From Chloroflexales bacterium ZM16-3 (GTDB lineage: Bacteria > Chloroflexota > Chloroflexia > Chloroflexales > Chloroflexaceae), in NCBI GenBank assembly GCA_004138175.2, contig RYFE02000001.1:124001-188000 (forward strand): a DNA stretch of 64,000 nt. Direction: 5' to 3'. The notes beneath the pieces are model-generated. The model did no database searches. It saw only the letters and a program-made list of their open reading frames with translations, and had not been told where the DNA came from. Made by a program: the position numbers and the translations under genes. Positions 4,906 through 30,113 of the stretch are shown piece after piece (position 1 is the stretch's first letter; the number at the start of each line of letters is the position of its first letter).

Positions 4906-5307
4906 CTATCCCCAGCCGAGGTCGTCGGCCTTCTTGGCGGGTCGGGGGATGGCCCCTTCCTCCACCTTCTCGTCGCCGGCCTCGGCGGACATCTCTTCAT
5001 CTAGCATCTGGTCGACCATCTCGTCCCAGTCTTCACCAGCGTCCTCGCCGAGCTCCTTCCCCATTCGCTTAGCCCAGCGGGCGATCGAGCGCGGGTCGTT
5101 CTCGTCGAGCCCAGAGAAGTTCATGGGGTCGGCCATCATCTCCAGACGGGCCTCCTCGGACTTGAGGGTGGCGAACCGTGAGACGGTGCGGCTCACCTGA
5201 TTGTTGCCGCAGCGCGGGCACGCTAGGCCGGGCGGGTCGCTGAAGCCCCGGACGAGCTTCTGGAATCTGCCGTTGCATGCGGGGCAGAGGTATTCGTAGA
5301 TTGGCAT
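4906..5307 (-). CDS. FmdB-family zinc-ribbon protein
   Basis: A 133-residue protein starting MPIYEYLCPACNGRF, with a second knuckle CPRCGNN. The two CxxC pairs form the small zinc ribbon typical of the FmdB/CxxC_CXXC_SSSS family. The family takes its name from a putative regulator in a formamidase cluster, but its biochemical role is unclear. The remaining 90 residues are acidic and low in complexity (many D/E). The gene lies directly upstream of ftsY on the same strand. Confidence 0.85.
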   Translation of the reverse strand: MPIYEYLCPACNGRFQKLVRGFSDPPGLACPRCGNNQVSRTVSRFATLKSEEARLEMMADPMNFSGLDENDPRSIARWAKRMGKELGEDAGEDWDEMVDQMLDEEMSAEAGDEKVEEGAIPRPAKKADDLGWG

Positions 5308-5311
5308 AGGA

Positions 5312-5365
5312 TTACCCTCAGGCGTGGGGCGTAGGTGTTGTGATACAGCACCTCACATCTTACGC
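5312..5365. repeat. Degenerate heptad-type hairpin
   Basis: GGCGTGG/GGCGTAG-type 7-nt units face a partly complementary arm ending in TTACGCC. It fills the gap between the zinc-ribbon start and the phosphorylase stop, slightly overlapping the stop. It is less regular than the other arrays. Confidence 0.45.
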
Positions 5366-6667
5366 CGTAATAATCTCCTCGACAAGGGCGGGGGCAGGCA
5401 CGGGTGTGTTAGATAATGTGTATGCGGCCAGGAGGCCGGGGGCCACGCGCCGGGCGTCCTCTGCGCTGGCGGCGTGAATGGTCAGCAGGGTTTCGCCTTG
5501 GGCGACGTGTTTGCCCACCTTGGCGGCGAGCACCATCCCCACGCGCGGGTCGATGCTGTCCTCTTTGCGCGACCTGCCGCCGCCGAGGGCGTTGCAGGCC
5601 ATGCCGAGCGCCTGCCCGTCGATGGCAGCCACATGGCCAGCGCGTGCTGCTGGGAGGTCGAGTGTGGCCGGGGCGGTTGGTAGGCGGCTCGGGTGCTCGA
5701 CGTAGTCCAGGTCTCCGCCCTGGCCGACGATCATCCGGGTGAACTTCTCCCATGCCGCGCCGCTCTCGATGGCCTCACGGAGCAGTGATCGGGCTTCCTC
5801 GTCGCTATTGCGCAGGCCAGCCAGTTGCACGAGTTGGCCGCCGAGGGTCAGGCAGAGGTCTACCAAGTCGGTCGGGCCATGGCCGCGCAGGGCACTGATT
5901 GCCTCGCGCACCTCTAGGGCGTTGCCGACCGCGAAGCCGAGGGGTTGCTGCATCGAGCTGAGCGCTGCAGAGACCCGGCGGCCGGCGTGGCTGCCGATTG
6001 CGACCATCATGCGGGCCAGCCGGCGGGCGTCGTCCAGGGTGTGCATAAATGCGCCGCTACCATACTTCACATCAAGGACGATGCAGTCGGCGCCGGCGGC
6101 GAGCTTCTTACTCATCACACTCGCGGCGATCAGCGGGATCGACTCGACGGTGGCGGTCACATCGCGGAGCGAGTAGAGCTTCTTATCGGCGGGGGCGAGG
6201 TCGCCGCTCTGGGCGGCCACCACCAAGCCCACCTCGCGCACGGCGCGGCGGAACTCCTCGGCGCTCAGGTTTGTGCGAAAGCCGGGGATGCTCTCCAGCT
6301 TATCGACGGTGCCGCCGCTGAAGCCCAGCCCGCGCCCGCTCATCTTCGCCACCGGCAGGCCGACGGCGGCGACCATGGGGGCAAGCAGGAGGGTCGTCTT
6401 ATCGCCGACGCCGCCGGTCGAGTGCTTATCAACTGTGAGCGGGGCGATATCGTGCAGGTTGAGCATATCGCCGCTGTGCGCCATCGCGATCGTCAGGTCA
6501 GCCGTCTCACGGTCGTCCATACCGCGCAGCACCACGGCCATCGCCCATGCGCTCATCTGATAGTCGGGGATATCGCCTGCGGCGTAGCCTGCGATCAGCC
6601 AGTGGATCTCCTCGCTGCTCAGGGCGGCCCCGTCTCGCTTCTTTGCGATCAGATCTACAGCCCGCAT
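5360..6667 (-). CDS. Pyrimidine-nucleoside (thymidine) phosphorylase
   Basis: A 435-residue member of the glycosyltransferase-3/nucleoside phosphorylase II family. The signature [20 protein letters not shown] (about 112-131) and the phosphate-binding [12 protein letters not shown] (about 83-94) are intact, and the C-terminal domain is present. It splits uridine or thymidine with phosphate to the base and (deoxy)ribose-1-phosphate. Length and the KLESIPGF motif fit pyrimidine-nucleoside phosphorylase (Pdp) or DeoA; the two cannot be separated by eye. It follows nnr in the same direction, after a hairpin at 6683-6719. Confidence 0.92.
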
Positions 6668-6682
6668 AGGGATGCCTTTCTA

Positions 6683-6719
6683 AGCCTCCGGGATGCTGCC
6701 CTGTAGCGTCCCGGAGGCT
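6683..6719 (-). terminator. Hairpin after nnr
   Basis: Perfect 11-bp arms (AGCCTCCGGGA and its complement) with a 15-nt loop lie between the nnr stop and the phosphorylase start. There is no strong T-tract, so it could be a weak terminator or a processing site. Confidence 0.45.
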
Positions 6720-6721
6720 GT

Positions 6722-8341
6722 TTACCCGCGCAGCGTGCGGATCGCCTGCGGTAGCTGGGGCAGCAGGTCGGATGCGAGGGTGCCGGCCTCGCCGAGAGCC
6801 TCGCGCACGCGCGCGCCGGCCGCGCCGTGAAGGAAGACCGCAAGGGCGGCGGCATCGAAGGCGGGAAGCCCCTGAGCGATGAGGCCGACAATCGCACCAG
6901 CTAGGACATCGCCGGTGCCGGCGGTGGCCAGGGCGGGGTTTGACCCATCGTAGACGAGGCTGCGGCCATCGGGGTTCGCTACCACGGTGGTTGCGCCCTT
7001 GAGCACCACCACCTGGCCCCATGCCTTTGCCGCATCGACTGCGCATGCCACTAGATCGGCGGGGAGCTCGTCCAGCTTCAGCAGGCGGCGCATCTCGCCG
7101 GGGTGTGGTGTGAAGACGAAGTGCCCGTGGGGCAGGTGCTCGGGCCAGTCCTCAATGTCGGCCAGGAGGTTGAGCCCATCGGCGTCGAGGACGGTGGGTG
7201 GCAGATCGAGCGCCTTTCCGCCATCGGCGTGAGCCTCCGCAGAGGGGCCGGACAGAAAGCCGACGCGGGCGCGGGACTTGGGCTGCTCCAGGCCGAAGAC
7301 ACGCTGGATGAACTCCTTCGTCGGGTCGGCCTTGCCGAGGCCAGGGCCGATCAGCAGCGCGGTATAGCCTTCCAGCGCCTTGCCGAGCTCCTCGGCGGCG
7401 GCCGGCCCAATAGCCCCCCACTCGCCCTCTGCTAGGGGCAGCAAGGTCACCTCAGGGCCGCGCCCAGTCGCGCCGAGCACCGTGCGCCCGGCGGCGAGCG
7501 TGACGAGCCCCGCGCCCACCCGTCCGGCGGCGGCGCAGGCCAGGGCTGCGGCACCGGGGTAGTGCAGCGATCCCGCCACAACCAGCGCCTTGCCAAAATC
7601 TCCCTTATGGGCATCGGCGGGCCGCGCAGGCAGCAGCTTGCGGGCATACTCAGCCGTCAGCATCTCACTCATACAAGCCTCCAGGTTCTGTGATGGTATT
7701 CCAATATCGGCGAGGGCGATGGCCCCGACAGCGGCTCGCCCCGGATAAAACAGCGTCCCGCGCTTGATGACGCCGGTGGCGACCGTCAGATCGGCTCTGA
7801 TCGCGACTCCGGCGATGGCTCCGTTGTCTGCGTTGACGCCGGTGGGAAGATCGACAGACAGCAAGACAGAGTCCTTGCCCCGCCTCACCCTCGCCTCGCC
7901 CACCTCGGCGATGATAGCGGCAAGGTCGCCCGTCACCGGGCGCGAGATCCCGGCACCGAGCAGCGCATCCACCACCAGATCGGCCTCTTCCAGGGCTGCC
8001 CGCAGCTCGATCCGGCTCGGGTCTTCCCCCGCGATCAGCGCGGGGATGTCGCGCTTACGGCAGCGCTGCCCGTTAGCGTCGTCCGGAGAATCGGGTCGGT
8101 TCCAGAGGTAGAGCCGTGTGGGGAACCCGGCGTCGTGCAGATGACGGGCCACCACCAGTCCGTCGCCCCCATTGTTGCCGGGGCCGACGAGGATGAGGGC
8201 GCGCCAGCCGTGCCTGAGGCGGCCAAGGGCTACCTGGGCGACGCCCCAGCCGGCCTGCTCCATCAGGCCAGCCCAGGTTGCCCCTGTGTCCACGGCGGCC
8301 CGCTCAAGGGCGCGCATCTCCTGCGTAGTCACAAGCTTCAT
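6722..8341 (-). CDS. nnr: Bifunctional NAD(P)H-hydrate epimerase / ADP-dependent dehydratase
   Basis: A 539-residue YjeF-type fusion. The N-terminal epimerase domain (about 1-215) has the GPGNNGGDGLVVARHL loop. The C-terminal kinase-fold dehydratase domain (about 230-535) has a HKGDFG-type start, LIGPGLGK and the nucleotide loop NPALATAGTGDVLAG. Together they repair damaged hydrated NADH/NADPH: the epimerase equilibrates R and S forms and the dehydratase restores NAD(P)H. The order and length match the bacterial Nnr fusion. The gene lies between acpS and the phosphorylase on the minus strand; the 138-nt gap upstream holds a possible -10 TACAAT close to the start. Confidence 0.95.
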   Translation of the reverse strand: MKLVTTQEMRALERAAVDTGATWAGLMEQAGWGVAQVALGRLRHGWRALILVGPGNNGGDGLVVARHLHDAGFPTRLYLWNRPDSPDDANGQRCRKRDIPALIAGEDPSRIELRAALEEADLVVDALLGAGISRPVTGDLAAIIAEVGEARVRRGKDSVLLSVDLPTGVNADNGAIAGVAIRADLTVATGVIKRGTLFYPGRAAVGAIALADIGIPSQNLEACMSEMLTAEYARKLLPARPADAHKGDFGKALVVAGSLHYPGAAALACAAAGRVGAGLVTLAAGRTVLGATGRGPEVTLLPLAEGEWGAIGPAAAEELGKALEGYTALLIGPGLGKADPTKEFIQRVFGLEQPKSRARVGFLSGPSAEAHADGGKALDLPPTVLDADGLNLLADIEDWPEHLPHGHFVFTPHPGEMRRLLKLDELPADLVACAVDAAKAWGQVVVLKGATTVVANPDGRSLVYDGSNPALATAGTGDVLAGAIVGLIAQGLPAFDAAALAVFLHGAAGARVREALGEAGTLASDLLPQLPQAIRTLRG

Positions 8342-8479
8342 GATAAGGATATTGTACCGTATCTCAGTGCGTTCGACTAAGGATAGCTCTCAAAACTCGG
8401 CTTGTTTTACAGAAGCGAAGATTCTGCGGGTCGCAGGTGCCCCTCTCTATCGGGATGCCACCTATACGGTCATTTACGG

Positions 8480-8899
8480 TCATTCGCCGACCGCCGACAT
8501 AGCCACCACGCTGGCCACGGCGCTGCCGCCGCTGTGCGACATGCTCAGGGCGATCTGGGCAATACCGAGGGCGGCCGCAGCCGCAGCAGCCGGGCCTTCA
8601 AGCCGGAGGGAGGGCCGTCCGTCGGCGGCGCGCACCACCTCAATGTCGGTCATCCCCGGTCGGTCGTTGGGTGAAGCTCCGGCGGCCATCCCGCTCAGCC
8701 CCACCCCCAGCGCCTTGGCCGCAGCTTCCTTGGCCGCCCAGCGCGCCGCGAGCGACTGGTAGCGCGGCGCGGGGCCGGGGAACCCGCAGTCGCACAGCTC
8801 GCTCTCGGTGTAGACGCGGCGCAGAAAACGCTCGCCCCAGCGGCTCGCCGCCCGCCGGATTCGCTCGATCTCAATAATGTCGATGCCGTGGTAGATCAC
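8480..8899 (-). CDS. acpS: Holo-[acyl-carrier-protein] synthase
   Basis: A 139-residue 4'-phosphopantetheinyl transferase of the AcpS type. It starts IYHGIDIIEIERI, with the Mg-binding Asp at residue 7, and contains ARWAAKEAAAKALG with the second metal ligand Glu58. It transfers the CoA phosphopantetheine arm to acyl carrier protein. The start is a GTG at 8899 that overlaps the TGA of the upstream gene (GTGA), which points to translational coupling. A longer in-frame extension to 8998 overlaps the FecR-like gene and does not look like the family. Confidence 0.93.
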   Translation of the reverse strand: MIYHGIDIIEIERIRRAASRWGERFLRRVYTESELCDCGFPGPAPRYQSLAARWAAKEAAAKALGVGLSGMAAGASPNDRPGMTDIEVVRAADGRPSLRLEGPAAAAAAALGIAQIALSMSHSGGSAVASVVAMSAVGE

Positions 8900-10320
8900 T
8901 GCTCGCCAACCAGCGACACATCGGCCACCAGCGAGTTGTAGTCGTGCCCGTTGGCATAGATCTGCACACCCTGGAGGTAGCGGTAGTCCGGCAGCCACTG
9001 CGGGTCGCGCAGATTAAACCGGAAGGATGTCCACTCGGCCTTCTTAACCTGGTAGTACAGGACATCCTTGTCCTTCACGCGGGGCGGCTGGTCGTTGGAG
9101 TCGGTGTAGATGCACACCACCCGCTGCTGGTCAGGGTCGTCGGGGCTATCCTGGCGTGCGAGGATGCGGATCATCACCGGGCACTCGCTGCCGCGGTCGC
9201 CGATATCTTCGAGCGACTGCTCGATCACGCGGGTCCAGAGCGAGAAGGTCAGGCTGCGGTACTCTGAGATATCAATGCCATTGCCGTCAGGCCCGAGCTG
9301 CTGTCTGATCCCGGTCGTGAATCCGCTGGTCTGACCGCCGACGCGGTAGAACCATGCCGCCGTGCGCCGATCAGACGCGGCGCAGGTGTTATCGACATTG
9401 GGCGGGCGGCAGATCGACGAGAGCCGGAACAAACCCTGCTGCTCGACCGGCAGCGGCGGGGTGCCATAGACCACCCAGCTGTCGGATCGGGCTAGTGCTG
9501 GCTCATCGCTGCGCGTGGTATTGTTATACTCTGTCTCGCTAAACTGCGAGAACCCGCCGTCGCGGATGAGCTCCCATCGCGCGGGCACAGGCATTCCTGG
9601 TGTGCTGGCCTGGTCGATCTCGACGCGCTGGCGGGTACCGAGCACCACGCCTGCCCCCTGCGTATTTTTCACCGTTGCCGTGCCGCTGCGGACGGCCACA
9701 TCGGCGGTGAAGGGCTGGATATCGGCCCCCGGCGTTACCTGCACGAGGCGGCTGGTCGGCTCAATGCTGACGCTGTAGCTTCCGCCCGGTGCGAGGTCGA
9801 GGGTGGCGTTCCCTATCAGTACGCGGAAGCGCACCTGCTGGTAGGGCTGCCCGGCCCGTAGATCGTAGCGCACATAGCCGCCGCTCTGCCGGATGGTTAC
9901 CTCTTGGAACTGATCGCTCCAGCGGGTTGTCTGGAGCGCTTCGAGGCGCAGATCGGCACCGGCCCAGAGGTCGAGTTGGCTCTCGTCGAAGAGCCTAATG
10001 CTGGCGATCTGACCATAGCCAGCTTTGGTGACGGCGCGGACGCTATCGCCCTCGCCAACCATCTGTTGCTCGTAGATTCCCTGGAAGACGCTGCGGTTGG
10101 CGGGCTGCCAGCTCACCCACTCGGCTGGGCCGCGCAGGATCACGGTTGCGTCGCGCTGGTTGGTGGCCGAGAGGTAGAACTGGCGCCCGGTGTAGATCGC
10201 CCAGCCAATCAGGAGCAGAAAGATGCTGAAGAATCCGAGCAGGGTTGTCCAGGCAATGCGCAGCGTGCGCCGCTGGGCCGCGCTATGCAGGCTGCCGGAG
10301 GCGATTTCAGTGTGTTGCAT
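8896..10320 (-). CDS. FecR-like membrane-anchored protein
   Basis: 474 residues. A short cytoplasmic N-terminus is followed by one membrane helix (about 22-44). A FecR-like beta domain (about 60-235) follows; its features are GEGDSVRAVTKAGYGQI, a DLAPGGSYSV stretch and VAVRSGTATVKN. The rest (about 250-474) looks like a secreted carbohydrate-binding-like beta sandwich. FecR domains usually relay envelope signals to ECF sigma factors, but no sigma factor is adjacent and the protein is longer than true FecR. The function is therefore a guess: an envelope or surface-binding protein. The 3' end overlaps acpS by 4 nt. Confidence 0.6.
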   Translation of the reverse strand: MQHTEIASGSLHSAAQRRTLRIAWTTLLGFFSIFLLLIGWAIYTGRQFYLSATNQRDATVILRGPAEWVSWQPANRSVFQGIYEQQMVGEGDSVRAVTKAGYGQIASIRLFDESQLDLWAGADLRLEALQTTRWSDQFQEVTIRQSGGYVRYDLRAGQPYQQVRFRVLIGNATLDLAPGGSYSVSIEPTSRLVQVTPGADIQPFTADVAVRSGTATVKNTQGAGVVLGTRQRVEIDQASTPGMPVPARWELIRDGGFSQFSETEYNNTTRSDEPALARSDSWVVYGTPPLPVEQQGLFRLSSICRPPNVDNTCAASDRRTAAWFYRVGGQTSGFTTGIRQQLGPDGNGIDISEYRSLTFSLWTRVIEQSLEDIGDRGSECPVMIRILARQDSPDDPDQQRVVCIYTDSNDQPPRVKDKDVLYYQVKKAEWTSFRFNLRDPQWLPDYRYLQGVQIYANGHDYNSLVADVSLVGEQ

Positions 10321-17222: not shown

Positions 17223-17322
17223 TGTGTTACCTCATGCGTGATCCGTTGCTTGTAGGGCACGGTTCGTCTGCAATTGTCTCATGCGCCTGGCGTCGCGCGT
17301 TAGAACGAGAAAGGAAGTTTCA

Positions 17323-19635
17323 ATGCTGCAGAAGGGTGATTCGCTAAAAGATATACAAGGATCTGCTGTTTCTATGCGTGGTGGTCGTGGGGGTAGCGGC
17401 GGTGGGGGCGGTGGTGGTAGCGGCGGTGGCGGCGGTAGCCGTCCCGGCGGCAGTAGCGGTGGCGGCGGTAGCCGTCCTGGCGGCAGTAGCGGCGGCGGCG
17501 GCGGTGGTAGCCGTCCTGGCGGCAGTAGCGGCGGCGGCGGCGGTGGTAGCCGTCCTGGCGGCGGCGGTGGCGGCGGTCGTCCCGGCGGCAGCAGCGGCGG
17601 TGGCGGCGGTAGCCGTCCCGGCGGCGGCGGTGGCGGCGGTCGTCCCGGCGGCAGCAGCGGCGGCGGCGGCGGCGGACGCCCCGGCGGCGGTGGCGGTGCC
17701 CGACCTGGCGGACGCCCCGGCGGCGGTGGCGGCGGGCGCCCCGGCGGCGGCGGGCGCCCCGGCGGCGGTCGACGTCCCGGCGGCTCGGACGGTGACGGTG
17801 GCTCGATGCGTGGCCGAGGCCGTGGTGGTGCTCCCGCGCCGAGAATTCCCGTTCGTCCGCGCGGCATCGTTGAGCTTCAGAGCATCATGACTATCCGTGA
17901 GCTCTCGGAGGCCACCGGCATCGGCGCGTCCGAGATCCTCAAGGCGCTGATGAAAAGCGGTGTGCTGGCGACCATCAATCAGCAGATCGACTATGAGACA
18001 GCGGCGCTGATCGTCGCAGACTTCAATATCGAGACGCACGAGACGGTGCCCGCGCAGCTCGCCGGTATTGTTGATAATGTTAAGGATGTGCTGTCTGCCC
18101 AGACCGAGGACGACATGCGGACGCGCCCGCCTGTGGTGACGATCATGGGCCACGTCGACCATGGCAAGACGAAGCTCCTCGACGCGATCCGCTCGGCACG
18201 GGTGGCCGAGGGCGAGGCCGGCGGTATCACTCAGCATATCGGTGCCTACCAGATCGAGGTGAACCACCGCAAGATCACCTTCCTGGACACCCCCGGCCAC
18301 GAGGCGTTCACCGCAATGCGCGCCCGTGGGGCACAGGCAACGGATATCGTCATCCTGGTGGTTGCCGCCGATGACGGCGTGATGCCCCAGACGGTCGAGG
18401 CGATCTCGCACGTGAAGGCGGCCGGTGTGCCGATGATCGTTGCGGTCAACAAGATCGATCTGCCGACGGCGAACCCCGACCGGATCAGGCAGCAGCTCGC
18501 CGCGAACGATGTGATCCTTGAGTCTTATGGCGGCAATGTGCCCTCGGTTGAGGTCTCGGCTAAGTCGAGGATCAATATCGAGGGCCTGCTGGAGATGATC
18601 CTGCTGGTGGCTGACCTTGAAGACTTCAAGGCGAACCCCGAAGCCCCTGCGCTGGGCACGATCATCGAGGCTGAGCTGGATAAGAACCGTGGCCCGGTGG
18701 CGACGGTGCTGATTCAGAACGGCACCCTGCGCCCCGAGGACAATGTGCTCGTGGGCGGCGTGGCTGGCAAGATCAAGACGATGTTCAACGATAGCGGCAA
18801 GCGCCTGCGGTTCGCTGACCCGTCGACCCCGGTGGAGATCCTCGGCCTTGATGGGGTGCCCCAGGCTGGCGATATTCTACAGGTGGTGGACGACCTGACG
18901 GTCGCCCGCGATATTGCGCTCCAGCGCCAGCGCCAGACCCGTATGGAGGCGGTGGGGATGGTGCGAGGCACCACGCTGGAGGATCTGTTCAGCAAGGTGC
19001 AGCAGGGGCAGGTGAAGGATCTCAATGTGATCCTGAAGGCTGATGTTCAGGGCTCAATCGGCGCGATCGAGCATCAGCTCGGCCAGCTCAGCAACTCGCA
19101 GAACGAGGTGCAGATCAAGATCCTCCACAAGGCCACTGGCGCGATCACTGAGGGCGATGTGAATCTGGCGTCAGCCAGCCAGGCGATCATCATCGGCTTC
19201 AACGCCCGGCCCGACCCGGCGGCGCGGCGGGCGGCTGAGCAACAGGGCATCGATATCCGCTTCTACAACATCATCTACCAGCTCACCGATGATATTAAGA
19301 AGGCTATGGTCGGTATGCTGGCGCCCACCTACAAAGAGGTGGTCGAGGGCTACGCCGATGTGCGTAACACCTTCCGGTTGCCCTCGCGCGAGGTGGTGGC
19401 GGGCCTGTACATCACCGATGGCAAGGTGACGCGCACCGGGCAGAGCGTGCGTGTGCTGCGCAGCGGCGCGGTGCTCCACGACGGGAAGATCAGCAGCCTC
19501 AAGCGCTTTAAGGATGATGTGCGCGAGGTGACGTCGGGCTACGAGTGTGGCCTTGTCGTCGAGAGCTTCACCGATGTCCAGGTGGGCGACAACATGGAGT
19601 TCTATCGCCAGGAGCGGGTTGAGGCTAGTCTGTAG
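17323..19635 (+). CDS. infB: Translation initiation factor IF-2
   Basis: 770 residues. ATG 17323 has AAGGAAG upstream; a longer frame to 17281 is unlikely. The first ~165 residues are nearly pure Gly with Ser, Arg and Pro ([12 protein letters not shown]-type repeats), in place of the usual charged helical N-terminus. Then come the short N2 helical domain ([19 protein letters not shown]) and the GTPase domain with [10 protein letters not shown] (about 275), DTPGHEA (about 322) and NKIDL (about 375). Domains II, III and IV follow. IF-2 positions initiator tRNA on the 30S subunit and drives subunit joining. The Gly-rich arm resembles an RGG-type RNA-binding tail. Confidence 0.97.
17377..17815 (+). 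repeat. Gly-rich codon repeat tract in infB
   Basis: Tandem GGC/GGT-rich units encode GGGGSRPGG-like repeats of varying length. The near-identical 30-60 nt blocks suggest expansion by slippage or unequal recombination. The antisense frame is also open and is a shadow. Confidence 0.8.
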
Positions 19636-24284: not shown

Positions 24285-25340
24285 ATGAGTGAAGAACTGC
24301 GCACGGTCTGGTGGGAGCAGGGGGCGGTCTGCCTGATTGATCAGCTCCGGCTGCCGCACGAGCAGCTGGTTGTCCGCTGCGAGGATGTGGCGACGGTGGC
24401 GAAGGCGATCAAGACCATGCAGGTGCGCGGCGCCCCGGCGATCGGCTGCACTGCCGCCTACGGCATGGCCCTGGCTGCGCTGGTGTCGCCCGCCGCCGAT
24501 GTGGTGGCCCTGCTGGCGGATCTGGAGACGGCGAAGGTATTTCTGGATAGCCAGCGGCCCACGGCGGTGAATCTGGCCTGGGCCACCGAGCGGGTGCTGG
24601 CGAAGGCTCGGCAGCTTGGCCCTGAGGTAGATGGGCCGCGCGCCCTGGCCGAGGCTCTGCTGGAGGAGGCCCACGCTGTTCTCACCGAGGACCTGGCGAT
24701 GTGCCACGCCATCGGTGACCACGGCGCACCGCTCATCCCGGCGGGCGGCCGTGTGCTGACCCACTGCAACGCCGGTGGCCTGGCCACGGCTGGCTACGGC
24801 ACCGCCCTCGCGCCTATGCGCAGCGCCTTCGCCCAGGGCCGGTCGATCCACGTCTGGGTCGATGAGACTCGGCCCTTCCTCCAGGGTGCCCGGCTCACCG
24901 CCTGGGAGCTGCACCAGTCTGGCATCCCGCTCACGCTGATCACCGACAACATGGCCGGTTATATGATGAAGAGCGGCAAGGTGGACTGTGTGATCGTCGG
25001 GGCCGACCGGATCGTGGCCAACGGCGACACGGCCAATAAGATCGGTACCTACAGCCTGGCTATCCTGGCCCGCTTCCACGGCATCCCCTTCTATGTGGCC
25101 GCGCCAACGTCTACCATCGATCTGAGCATGGAGCACGGCGATCTGATCCCGATCGAGGAGCGATCCTCGGATGAGGTGACGCACCTAGCTGGCCAGCTGA
25201 TCGCCCCGGTGGGGGTGAATGCGGCCCACCCGGCCTTCGACGTTACCCCGGCTGAGCTGATCACGGGGATCATCACGGAGCGTGGGGTGGTTACTCCTCC
25301 ATTTGTGCCGGGCCTCCGGCGCGTCAAGGAAGGCGCATAG
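24285..25340 (+). CDS. mtnA: Methylthioribose-1-phosphate isomerase
   Basis: 351 residues of the eIF-2B-like MtnA family. MQVRGAPAIGCTAAYG (about 46-61), the active-site Cys in THCNAGGLATAGYGTALAP (about 159-177) and the Asp in GADRIVANGDTANKIGTY (about 239-256) are intact. It converts methylthioribose-1-phosphate to methylthioribulose-1-phosphate in the methionine salvage pathway. It is the first gene behind the SAM riboswitch. No mtnB, mtnC or mtnD genes follow in this window, so the rest of salvage lies elsewhere or is replaced. Confidence 0.95.
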   Translation: MSEELRTVWWEQGAVCLIDQLRLPHEQLVVRCEDVATVAKAIKTMQVRGAPAIGCTAAYGMALAALVSPAADVVALLADLETAKVFLDSQRPTAVNLAWATERVLAKARQLGPEVDGPRALAEALLEEAHAVLTEDLAMCHAIGDHGAPLIPAGGRVLTHCNAGGLATAGYGTALAPMRSAFAQGRSIHVWVDETRPFLQGARLTAWELHQSGIPLTLITDNMAGYMMKSGKVDCVIVGADRIVANGDTANKIGTYSLAILARFHGIPFYVAAPTSTIDLSMEHGDLIPIEERSSDEVTHLAGQLIAPVGVNAAHPAFDVTPAELITGIITERGVVTPPFVPGLRRVKEGA

Positions 25341-25345
25341 CGTCT

Positions 25346-26395
25346 ATGCCTCTTGCGTTTGCGCCGGCCTGTCGGCCTGTGCTCCGGGGCGGCCTCCCCC
25401 ACGCCACCGCTCACGATGCGGTCGCCCTGGTGGCTACAGTCACGCCGGATATTCCGGCATGGCCGGCGGTGCCCGAGCGCAGCTTCCGCGAGACGCCAAT
25501 GGCGCAGGCGGCCGCCGGCTTCCCTGGCCTGACGATCGACCCGGCCTATGAGCGGATCAGCGTGAACCATGCGGCCGCTGAGATCGGTCTTGATCATCTG
25601 GGCCTGGCCTACCTGCGCAGCGAGCCGGGCGCAGGCGCGCTGCCCGCCGATCACGCCGCTGGCCTGGGCGAGCTGCTGCGCCTGGTGGGCCACGGACATC
25701 GCGCCCTCGCCCTCAAGGGTGAGGTGCGGGGCCCGGTGAGCCTGTCGCTTCAGCTGACCGATGAGGATGACCGGCCCCTGGCCTACGACCCGGCCCTGCG
25801 TGAGGCGCTGCTCCACCATCTCTCGCTGCGGGTTGCCTGGCACTACGAGCAGCTTAGCACCTACACCGACAGTGTGATCTTCTGTCTGGATGAGCCCTTC
25901 CTTGATGCGCTGAGCCTGCCGCTCTGCCCGATCGACCGTGACGAGGGCATTGATATGATCGACCGGCTGCTTGATACGATGTCGGGCTGCCGGGGGATCT
26001 GTGTCGGCCCCGGCGTAGACTGGGAGGCGTTGCTGATGACCTCGGTGGATCTGGTGATGTTCGACGCCTATGATCATATGGCTGAGCTTACCCAATCCGC
26101 AGGGCTGGTGTCGCAGTTTTTTGATCGGGGCGGCTTCCTTGGCTGGGGGGTCGTGCCTGTAGACCCAGGTGCGCTCGCGCTGGAGCGGGCCGATGCCCTG
26201 GTCCAGCGGATCGAGCGGGCCGCCGAGCAGATCGCCTCGGCGGGCGATGTGAGTCGGCAGAGCATTCTGGAGGCATCGCTGATCACCAGCAGCGGTGATC
26301 TGGCTTCCCTGCCGGTGGATGTTGCTGAAGGAACTCTCGGCATGTGCGCCGCCGTCTCGCAGCTGCTGCGTGAGGCTCACGGCCTTGGGGAATAG
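25346..26395 (+). CDS. MetE/UroD-superfamily protein (methionine-synthase-like)
   Basis: 349 residues resembling a single TIM-barrel of cobalamin-independent methionine synthase or uroporphyrinogen decarboxylase. EVRGPVSLSLQL, CLDEPFLDALSLPLC and GWGVVPVDPG match barrel landmarks of MetE (GPVT, DEPALREG, GVYDIHSP). The MetE zinc ligands are not all kept: by eye the HxC motif reads GIC, the Glu position reads Asp, and the NPDCG Cys reads Ser. Catalysis as a classical methionine synthase is therefore doubtful. It starts 5 nt after mtnA within the SAM-regulated operon, so a role in homocysteine or methylthio chemistry is likely but unproven. Confidence 0.65.
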   Translation: MPLAFAPACRPVLRGGLPHATAHDAVALVATVTPDIPAWPAVPERSFRETPMAQAAAGFPGLTIDPAYERISVNHAAAEIGLDHLGLAYLRSEPGAGALPADHAAGLGELLRLVGHGHRALALKGEVRGPVSLSLQLTDEDDRPLAYDPALREALLHHLSLRVAWHYEQLSTYTDSVIFCLDEPFLDALSLPLCPIDRDEGIDMIDRLLDTMSGCRGICVGPGVDWEALLMTSVDLVMFDAYDHMAELTQSAGLVSQFFDRGGFLGWGVVPVDPGALALERADALVQRIERAAEQIASAGDVSRQSILEASLITSSGDLASLPVDVAEGTLGMCAAVSQLLREAHGLGE

Positions 26396-26438: not shown

Positions 26439-27422
26439 ATGCGGATTGTAGTGACTGGCTCGCTGGCGTTTGATTACATTATGGACTTCCCGGGGCACTT
26501 TAAAGACCACCTGCTGATGGAGAAGCAGCACATTCTCTCGGTCAGCTTCTTGGTCGACTCGATGAAGCGCCTGCGCGGCGGTGTGGCCGGGAACGTCGCC
26601 TACAACCTGGCGCTGCTGGGCGAGCGCCCGCTGATGGTGGGCACGGTCGGCCAGGATTTTGGTGAGTACCGGGCCTGGCTGGAGGGCCACGGCGTCGATA
26701 CCAGCGGGCTGGTGGAGATCGCCAATGAGTTTACGGCATCGTGCTTCATCAACACCGACCGGGCGAACAACCAGATTGTGGCCTTCTACCCCGGCGCGAT
26801 GAACCACGACCATAAGCTCTCGCTGGCCGACCTCGGCCTGACCGGCGAGGATCTGGTGCTGATCTCGCCGACCACGCCCGAGGCGATCCTGAGCTACGCC
26901 GTTGAGTGCCAGCGGCTTGGCATCCCCTACATTTTCGATCCGGGCAAGCAGTCGCCCCGTCTATCGGCGGATCATATTCGCACCGGCCTGTCGGGGGCGC
27001 GGGTGTTTGTGGGCAACGACTATGAGTTCGGCATGATGGCGAAGATGCTGGAGATCAGCGAGGTTGAACTGATCGCGAGCGTGCCGCTGACGGTGGTGAC
27101 GAGGGGCGAGGCCGGATCGCTGATCTATGTTGACGGGAATCTGGCGGCGACCATCCCCACTGCGCCGGTGAGCGATGTGGTGGACCCCACCGGCGCTGGC
27201 GATGCCTACCTGGCCGGCCTGGCCCTGGGCATCGCTCACGACCTGCCGATCGAGGTTACTGGGCGGGTGGCGGCGCTAGCGGCGGCCTTCGCGATTGAGG
27301 AGCGTGGCTGCCAGGAGCACGGCTATACCTTCGACGCCTTTGTCGAGCGCTACCGGGACGCCTTTGGCCAGGAGCTGTCAGTGGGAAGCTTTCGGGAAGC
27401 TGTGAGCGCCCCGGAGGCTTAA
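26439..27422 (+). CDS. PfkB-family carbohydrate kinase, probable adenosine kinase
   Basis: 327 residues. It starts MRIVVTGSLAFDYIMDFPG and has GGVAGNVAYNLALLG (about 47-61) and the PfkB signature 2 with catalytic Asp, DPTGAGDAYLAGL (about 249-261). Members with this start and genomic place next to ahcY and metK are usually adenosine kinases. Removing adenosine would pull the S-adenosylhomocysteine hydrolase reaction forward. Substrate specificity is inferred from context; ribokinase-like activity is the alternative. GAGGAAAAAT precedes the ATG. Confidence 0.82.
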   Translation: MRIVVTGSLAFDYIMDFPGHFKDHLLMEKQHILSVSFLVDSMKRLRGGVAGNVAYNLALLGERPLMVGTVGQDFGEYRAWLEGHGVDTSGLVEIANEFTASCFINTDRANNQIVAFYPGAMNHDHKLSLADLGLTGEDLVLISPTTPEAILSYAVECQRLGIPYIFDPGKQSPRLSADHIRTGLSGARVFVGNDYEFGMMAKMLEISEVELIASVPLTVVTRGEAGSLIYVDGNLAATIPTAPVSDVVDPTGAGDAYLAGLALGIAHDLPIEVTGRVAALAAAFAIEERGCQEHGYTFDAFVERYRDAFGQELSVGSFREAVSAPEA

Positions 27423-27528: not shown

Positions 27529-28794
<1,266 letters not shown>

Positions 28795-28898: not shown

Positions 28899-30113
28899 AT
28901 GTCAACAACATTCACAACGTCGCCGAAGTTTGTCTTTACAAGCGAGTCGGTTAGCGCGGGGCACCCGGATAAGCTGTGCGACCAGGTGAGCGACGCGATC
29001 CTGGATGCATTTCTTGCGCACGACCCGCGTGCGCGCGTGGCGGTGGAGACGGCCACCACCACCGGCCTGATCGTGGTGCTTGGCGAGGTGACCTACGCTA
29101 AGGGCTATATCCCGATCGAGGAGATCGTCCGCACCACGGTGAAGGAGATCGGCTACACCGACGCGAGCTTCGGCTTCGACGCCGACACCTGCGGCGTAAT
29201 GGTTGCCATCCACGGCCAGTCGCCCGACATTGCCCAGGGCGTCGATAAGGCGCTTGAGGTCCGCACCGGCGAGATGAGCGACGCCGAGGTTGACTCGGTG
29301 GGCGCCGGCGACCAGGGCATGATGTTCGGCTTCGCCTGCAATGAGACGCCCGAGTTCATGCCGGCATCGAGCGCGCTGTCGCACCGGCTGATCCGCAAGA
29401 TCACCGAGCTGCGGAAGAACGGCACTCTGCCCTACCTGCGCCCCGACGCGAAGAGCCAGGTGACGGTGGAGTACGCTTACGGCAAGCCGGTGCGCGTGGA
29501 CACGGTGCTGATCAGCACCCAGCACGCCCCCGAGGTCAGCCAGGAGCAGATCAGCGCGGATGTGATCGCTCAGGTGATCAAGGCCGAGATCCCCGCCGAG
29601 TGGATCGATGAGAACACGAAGTACTTCGTGAACCCGACCGGTCGCTTTGTGGTGGGCGGCCCGATGGGCGACAGCGGCCTGACCGGGCGCAAGATCATTG
29701 TGGACACCTACGGCGGCGTGGCTCGCCACGGCGGCGGCGCCTTCTCGGGCAAGGACCCGAGCAAGGTGGACCGCTCGGCCGCCTACGCGGCGCGCTGGGT
29801 GGCCAAGAATGTGGTGGCCGCCGGTCTGGCCGAGCGCTTCGAGCTTCAGCTGAGCTACGCTATCGGCGTGTCCCGCCCGCTCTCGATCAGCGGCGAGACC
29901 TTCGGCACCGGCAAGGTTGCCGATGAGATGATCTTCAAGGCGATCAACGAGGTGTTTGACCTGCGCCCCGGCGCGATCATCCGCGACCTGGGTCTGCGTC
30001 GGCCGATCTACCGCCAGACGGCGGCCGGCGGCCACTTCGGCCGCACCGACATTAATCTGCCCTGGGAGCAGACGAATAAGGTTGAGGAGCTGCGCCGGGC
30101 GGCTGGCCTGTAG
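28899..30113 (+). CDS. metK: S-adenosylmethionine synthetase
   Basis: 404 residues. The ATP/methionine-binding [19 protein letters not shown] (about 21-39), [12 protein letters not shown] (about 136-147) and the P-loop-like [19 protein letters not shown] (about 285-303) are intact. It makes SAM from ATP and methionine. It is the last gene of the SAM/methionine operon and ends before a strong hairpin at 30149-30188. Regulation of the distal genes by the S-box depends on read-through from mtnA. Confidence 0.97.

Follow-up and report, generated by a model that had tools for sequence, protein, structure and literature searches.

A zinc-less relative of the core methionine synthase MesB is retained in the SAM-recycling operon of the order Chloroflexales

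The SAM-recycling operon of Chloroflexales bacterium ZM16-3 carries a gene for a MesB-like protein, here called X, that has lost the zinc site of its relatives but is kept in every genome of the order that we sampled. X is under purifying selection, chiefly in its N-terminal half, while the C-terminal, formerly zinc-binding half is relaxed in several genera. We lean, with modest conviction, toward the view that X is a remnant of MesB that now serves the SAM cycle as a binding or regulatory protein without catalysis. Price et al. (2021, PMC7857596) have already published a zinc-less group of this kind from sister genera, and X is a further member of it. What we add is its retention across the order, the drift of its zinc positions within a genus, the asymmetry between its N and C halves, and its MetH/CdhD context.

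Results

The window, the whole stretch of DNA that was analyzed, is 64,000 nucleotides long. X is a 349-aa open reading frame at 25346-26395 (+) that begins 5 bases past the mtnA stop. A SAM riboswitch (S box, RF00162; 24045..24214, +; cmscan 71.4 bits, E 1.1e-14, gathering 44.4) heads the operon. It is followed by mtnA, encoding methylthioribose-1-phosphate isomerase (24285..25340, +; NCBIfam TIGR00512, 445.5 bits, cut-off 279), X itself, a PfkB-family kinase (26439..27422, +; Pfam PF00294, 137.5 bits), ahcY for adenosylhomocysteinase (27532..28794, +; TIGR00936, 642.7 bits), and metK for methionine adenosyltransferase (28899..30113, +; TIGR01034, 577.3 bits). An earlier note on this DNA had put X between mtnA and an adenosine kinase under an S-box. 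The riboswitch and mtnA were borne out, but every named kinase model fell under its cut-off, and the kinase is confirmed as a PfkB family member alone. The 6.27-Mb genome has one copy of X. In the collection scanned, the nearest named relatives of this genome are Oscillochloris, and X is 83% identical to a protein of Oscillochloris sp. ZM17-4. Elsewhere in the window, 17281-19635 encodes what by eye is translation initiation factor IF-2, with a long glycine-rich terminal tract.

Searched as a single sequence, X had no match at E <=0.001 in Pfam or NCBIfam and none of note in the PDB. PF01717 (Meth_synt_2) matched neither X nor anything else in its genome, and it was found in 0 of the 23 genomes of family f1. 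Relatives of X at E <=0.001 were present in 88 of the 400 genomes of our phylum sample, and those fetched yielded a family alignment of 92 proteins, including the X of the window. The weak or partial matches in G065, G342, and G349 and a second match in G162 were not fetched, and five intact-site genomes (G020, G186, G263, G393, and G256) lay outside the family searches. X is 28-34% identical to the 24 rows from outside the order in alignment A2, and most relatives outside the order carry an intact H-C-D-C set, as does Dehalococcoides mccartyi MesB.

When the zinc-less family of the order was compared with the intact MesB-type family, hhalign gave 100%, E 7e-77, over 338 columns. The two families together matched MetE and core-MetE proteins of the same phylum at 94%, E 1.2e-7; the zinc-less family alone reached 52% against MetE-type proteins of the phylum. 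These profile comparisons place X in the MetE superfamily by way of MesB, and in this the earlier note, which had called X MetE-like, was right. The kinship with MetE is so distant that single-sequence tools miss it, but it holds by profile. Synteny and profile together identify X as the ortholog, by operon position, of the Dehalococcoides core methionine synthase MesB. A search with a 39-member profile reached only 3rpd (E 1.4), a MesD-type structure (Price et al. 2021, PMC7857596). In the tree, X groups with the zinc-less copies of the order; one such copy (G142, on a very long branch) falls outside the clade of the order, a placement that the tool flags as unsure.

The zinc ligands of D. 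mccartyi MesB are given as H214, C216, D235, and C311 in DET0516 (Price et al. 2021, PMC7857596) or as His215, Cys217, Asp236, and Cys312 in the work that showed methionine formation from methylcobalamin (Deobald et al. 2020, PMC7005905). In the 92-sequence alignment, with residues numbered from the start at 25346, codons 219-221 of X (C V G; 26000..26008, +) occupy the place of the His-x-Cys pair, so that C219 stands for His and G221 for Cys. Codon 317 (G317; 26294..26296, +) holds Gly in place of the last zinc-binding Cys. Only D240, in the Asp/Glu column (26063..26065, +), is still filled as in MesB. Gly16 replaces the homocysteine-binding Ser of MesB, and the homocysteine Asp, D182 of a DEP motif, is kept. 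The earlier note had described the zinc ligands of MetE as partly missing, pairing GIC with HMC and a Ser with the last Cys by eye. The incomplete site stands, in stronger form, since only the Asp is in place, but both pairings are shifted in the alignment.

This loss is common to the order. Among the 39 full-length zinc-less copies used for conservation counts (one fragment, L087, was excluded from the 40), position 1 is His in 0, position 2 is Cys in 6, position 3 is Asp or Glu in 20, and position 4 is Cys in 0; no operon copy in the 40 sampled genomes has a complete ligand set. The homocysteine Asp is retained in 25 of the 39, with f2 and f4 among those that have lost it, and in most copies the homocysteine Ser is replaced by Gly, Asp, or Ala. 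Each of the five genomes in the window's genus has a ligand set of its own: CGDG (the window copy), SGDG, CGDA, SGDD, and ANDQ. A complete alternative zinc site, which would have refuted the earlier note, was not found; the variation between congeners argues against another metal site having taken over these positions.

We then examined how the gene is distributed. An operon copy of X is present in 40 of 40 sampled genomes of the order. In a neighborhood survey of the kind suggested by the earlier note, the arrangement mtnA-X-pfkB-ahcY-metK was found at 37 of the 40 loci, and the remaining three are interrupted by contig ends; 12 of the 17 loci examined, the window included, have a SAM riboswitch ahead of the operon. 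At one locus (L094, G238), metK 3′ of ahcY is split into two open frames by a frameshift that is either genuine or due to draft assembly. Elsewhere in the same class, X is absent from all 14 genomes listed, of which 9 have an mtnA match and 13 a PF02574 match. Five of these loci were read: one (G281) is mtnA-pfkB-ahcY-metK, and four from f5 are mtnA-ahcY-metK. Relatives in the class thus have such an operon without X, and retention of X is not forced. In another family, the G011 locus (L035) reads riboswitch-mtnA-X-pfkB-ahcY-metK with an intact-ligand X; that genome has a full-length CdhD, and its sole PF02574 frame is 298 aa long.

Outside the order, at L039 (G382), a zinc-less copy with QSDA at the ligand positions lies at 4944-6068, immediately behind a SAM riboswitch. 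In this genome PF02574 matches two frames, and no CdhD match passes the cut-off. Its copy does not join the order in the tree, a sign of a second, seemingly independent loss of the zinc site, although the branch is long and its placement uncertain.

Three f3 genomes of the order have, in addition, an intact-site (HCDC) MesB-like paralog directly behind the gene for magnesium chelatase subunit H (L086, L084, and L081). At L086, the paralog/chelatase pair occupies 4983-6059 and 6085-9816, and the chelatase is BchH (TIGR02025, 862 bits). At a fourth f3 paralog locus (L083), the contig start is too close for the upstream gene to be seen. A zinc methyltransferase-like protein adjoining bacteriochlorophyll synthesis deserves another look.

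The methionine synthase background of the order is that of MetH. PF02574 (MetH-type) was found in 39 of the 40 order genomes, the exception being a 96% complete draft (G316), and full-length CdhD (PF03599; CoFeSP) in 0 of 40. Some order genomes gave weak PF03599 matches, mostly within MetH-sized frames, with G370 just above cut-off; the genome of the window gave none. That genome encodes MetH (TIGR02082, 1075 bits, above cut-off) and MetF. The cysteine and B12 motifs of MetH were present in 20 of 20 MetH proteins fetched.

In 40 other genomes that we searched, PF02574 was absent from 30 and CdhD was strong in 33; 29 of the 30 genomes lacking PF02574 have CdhD. These counts come from related genomes and are not independent events. 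The thirtieth, a 1.0-Mb genome (G154, L065), has an intact MesB-like protein, and neither CdhD nor PF02574 was found in it. The pattern is not clean. Intact but more distant copies occur together with PF02574, and without full-length CdhD, in three f73 genomes, G283, and G334; G011, G367, and G397 have intact copies with both CdhD and PF02574; and G081 is also an exception. In this last genome, which has CdhD and PF02574, the MesB-like copy (L069) reads HEDC at the ligand positions.

To follow selection on X, we computed pairwise dN/dS with our own NG86 script, taking residues 1-195 as the N half. Within the genus, X gave 0.10-0.31 (10 pairs) and mtnA 0.08-0.20, and X gave 0.06-0.29 in the other groups tested. 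In the four pairs that include the window gene, dN/dS was 0.09-0.12 for the N half and 0.21-0.38 for the C half; dS exceeds 1, near saturation, in the G012 pairs. The C/N ratio of differences was 2.56 in the window's genus, and two further groups gave 1.89 and 2.44. It was 1.12, 1.10, and 0.68 in three more, where the asymmetry is absent, and this counts against a non-catalytic reading of X. Intact pairs above 60% identity had median C/N ratios of about 0.5-1.1. Total tree length gave a C/N ratio of 1.64 for zinc-less copies (29 taxa) versus 0.86 for intact ones (36).

The conserved residues follow the same pattern. C9, D139, R162, and E183, all in the N half, are conserved at >=95% in the 39 zinc-less copies, and S132 and W165 of X are kept as well. 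Counting residues of the HCDEKRYNQ type at >=95%, zinc-less copies have 4 in the N half and 0 in the C half, and the 36 intact copies have 7 and 9. Conserved positions divide N:C as 15:2 in the zinc-less set versus 28:20 in the intact set (Fisher p 0.036, which for related sequences is indicative only). The intact set of 36 rows is without families f13, f24, f29, and f73, the second G242 copy, the HCDC paralogs of the order itself, and the rows lacking an exact HCDC (G081 and G382).

A structure predicted by AlphaFold from a four-sequence alignment had a mean pLDDT of 50.8, with an unreliable N half, and Foldseek found no match at E <=0.001 with this low-confidence model. VIA-align with the same poor model ranked MetE structures at the top (Z up to 8.1, about the tool's "weak" level), with UroD structures below them (Z about 6.5-7.0).

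Evolutionary rates singled out no partner for X. Among 15 pairs compared over 20 taxa, X-pfkB scored highest (rho 0.54). With 29 of the 39 zinc-less taxa, near duplicates and incomplete operons having been dropped, and several filters, X-pfkB gave 0.19-0.44 and X-mtnA 0.37-0.42, with pfkB-ahcY equally high in places. Over all runs, rho with X was 0.29-0.42 for mtnA, 0.19-0.54 for pfkB, and -0.13 to 0.06 for ahcY; for MetH it was 0.00, which lends MetH no support as a partner. We do not take the covariation as pointing to any partner, since the signal is weak and unstable and some other neighboring gene pairs covaried equally.

Discussion

Price, Deutschbauer, and Arkin described a zinc-less offshoot of MesB in Chloroflexus and Roseiflexus, in which FSHG, YCDQ, or YREQ replaces the HCEC/HCDC set (Price et al. 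2021, PMC7857596). They saw no Wood-Ljungdahl pathway in this lineage and proposed another function for the protein (PMC7857596). X belongs with that group: it is MesB-like, comes from the order Chloroflexales, has lost the zinc set, and its genome gave no CdhD match. The lineage and the defect are the same, and the order loci analyzed here include FSHG, YCDQ, and YCEQ; the window copy differs in having CGDG and in coming from an Oscillochloris-like genome. The main text of that paper contains mtnA 0 times, and we found no mention there of within-genus drift, half-barrel asymmetry, or the mtnA-X operon. Among later open-licence PMC literature, we recognized no work on zinc-less MesB-like proteins of the Chloroflexales. 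The earlier note, judging by eye, set X apart from the core MetE types already described, whose ligands are intact; this is correct as worded, but the group to which X belongs had already been described.

D. mccartyi MesB was itself found via its operon with SAM synthetase and SAH hydrolase (Deobald et al. 2020, PMC7005905). X resembles it in length, in homology over the whole length, and in SAM operon context, but keeps only the Asp ligand in place and has lost the Ser that contacts the substrate. CoFeSP (AcsC/AcsD) is present in genomes with MesB, and none was found in the genome of X. Tandem-repeat MetE, with two homologous barrels and about 750 aa, shares with X the superfamily and, remotely, the catalytic barrel; X has a single 349-aa domain and lacks both the folate-binding half and the zinc set.

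Judged from its residues, X can hardly still make methionine. Since the zinc-less protein is kept in the same SAM-recycling operon across the order, it probably does some other job there. A MesB core methionine synthase would once have closed the SAM cycle in the mtnA-X-pfkB-ahcY-metK operon. The CoFeSP methyl donor would then have been lost, with reliance on MetH, and X would have lost its function, presumably in that order. The protein has, more likely than not, been kept as a binding or regulatory protein without catalysis under SAM riboswitch control, its N-terminal half (C9, Y89, S132, D139, R162, W165, and E183) perhaps contacting a small molecule or a SAM-cycle enzyme. A more specific form of this proposal is tentative, and we would not call it probable: X may be a pseudoenzyme, descended from methionine synthase, that serves the SAM cycle as a sensor or regulatory subunit under riboswitch control, with one half-barrel selected as a binding module and the catalytic half decaying. 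By analogy, X might be likened to the trypanosome AdoMetDC prozyme, a catalytically dead relative kept in a related pathway beside an active enzyme; X is a sole copy with no active paralog known in its own genome.

It is also possible, though we think it rather doubtful, that X has been repurposed as a zinc-independent enzyme for another substrate, using N-half residues, for example around C9, D139, R162, and E183. This idea would suit the purifying selection, the conserved N-half residues, some of which are new, the retention throughout the order sample, and the position in a metabolic operon. With E183 kept, and the homocysteine Asp in 25 of the 39 copies, the old pocket might conceivably still bind a ligand or take part in catalysis, a point that weighs against the non-catalytic reading. 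However, the active site of such a barrel normally uses both halves, and the C half of the 39 zinc-less copies has no chemically active residue conserved at >=85%. The homocysteine residues speak against it as well, with the Ser changed in most copies and the Asp gone from f2 and f4. The earlier note suggested a methylthio-sugar or another methyl carrier as the substrate. We rejected a methylthio-sugar methyltransferase, as nothing here favors it, and the drifting catalytic half speaks against a methyl transfer at the former site.

That X is a functionless, decaying relic kept merely by its place in the operon is improbable. Its catalytic residues are lost and drifting, its tree is the longest among the six proteins compared (13.99; the others, 2.30-6.84), and relatives in the class manage without it. 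We rejected this explanation on the strength of purifying selection, the low dN/dS holding both within the genus and elsewhere. In addition, frames are open in all 39 full-length copies used, retention is complete, and the X-less operons of relatives show that it is not forced.

Still less likely is that X remains active as a methionine synthase, or as a different zinc methyltransferase, by means of an alternative metal site. Membership in the MetE superfamily, an operon place that suits a methionine synthase, and the ligand Asp of the window copy would fit. This was rejected because the zinc ligands are lost and drift even among congeners, with neither the first His nor the last Cys in any of the 39 copies, and because the genome has MetH. 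A UroD-type decarboxylase of the same superfamily would have refuted the earlier note, and the UroD structures in the VIA-align comparison speak for it. It is scarcely credible and was rejected, since X has no URO-D family match, its nearest relatives are MesB, and MetE structures scored above UroD, though with a poor model and weak Z values.

These findings caution against annotating zinc-less X genes as methionine synthase. If the sensor or regulatory subunit proposal is true, X would be a new kind of regulator of the bacterial SAM cycle. At one and the same place in the operon, Wood-Ljungdahl genomes have an intact methionine synthase and a whole MetH-bearing order has a zinc-less relative, a natural example of an enzyme that has outlasted its reaction.
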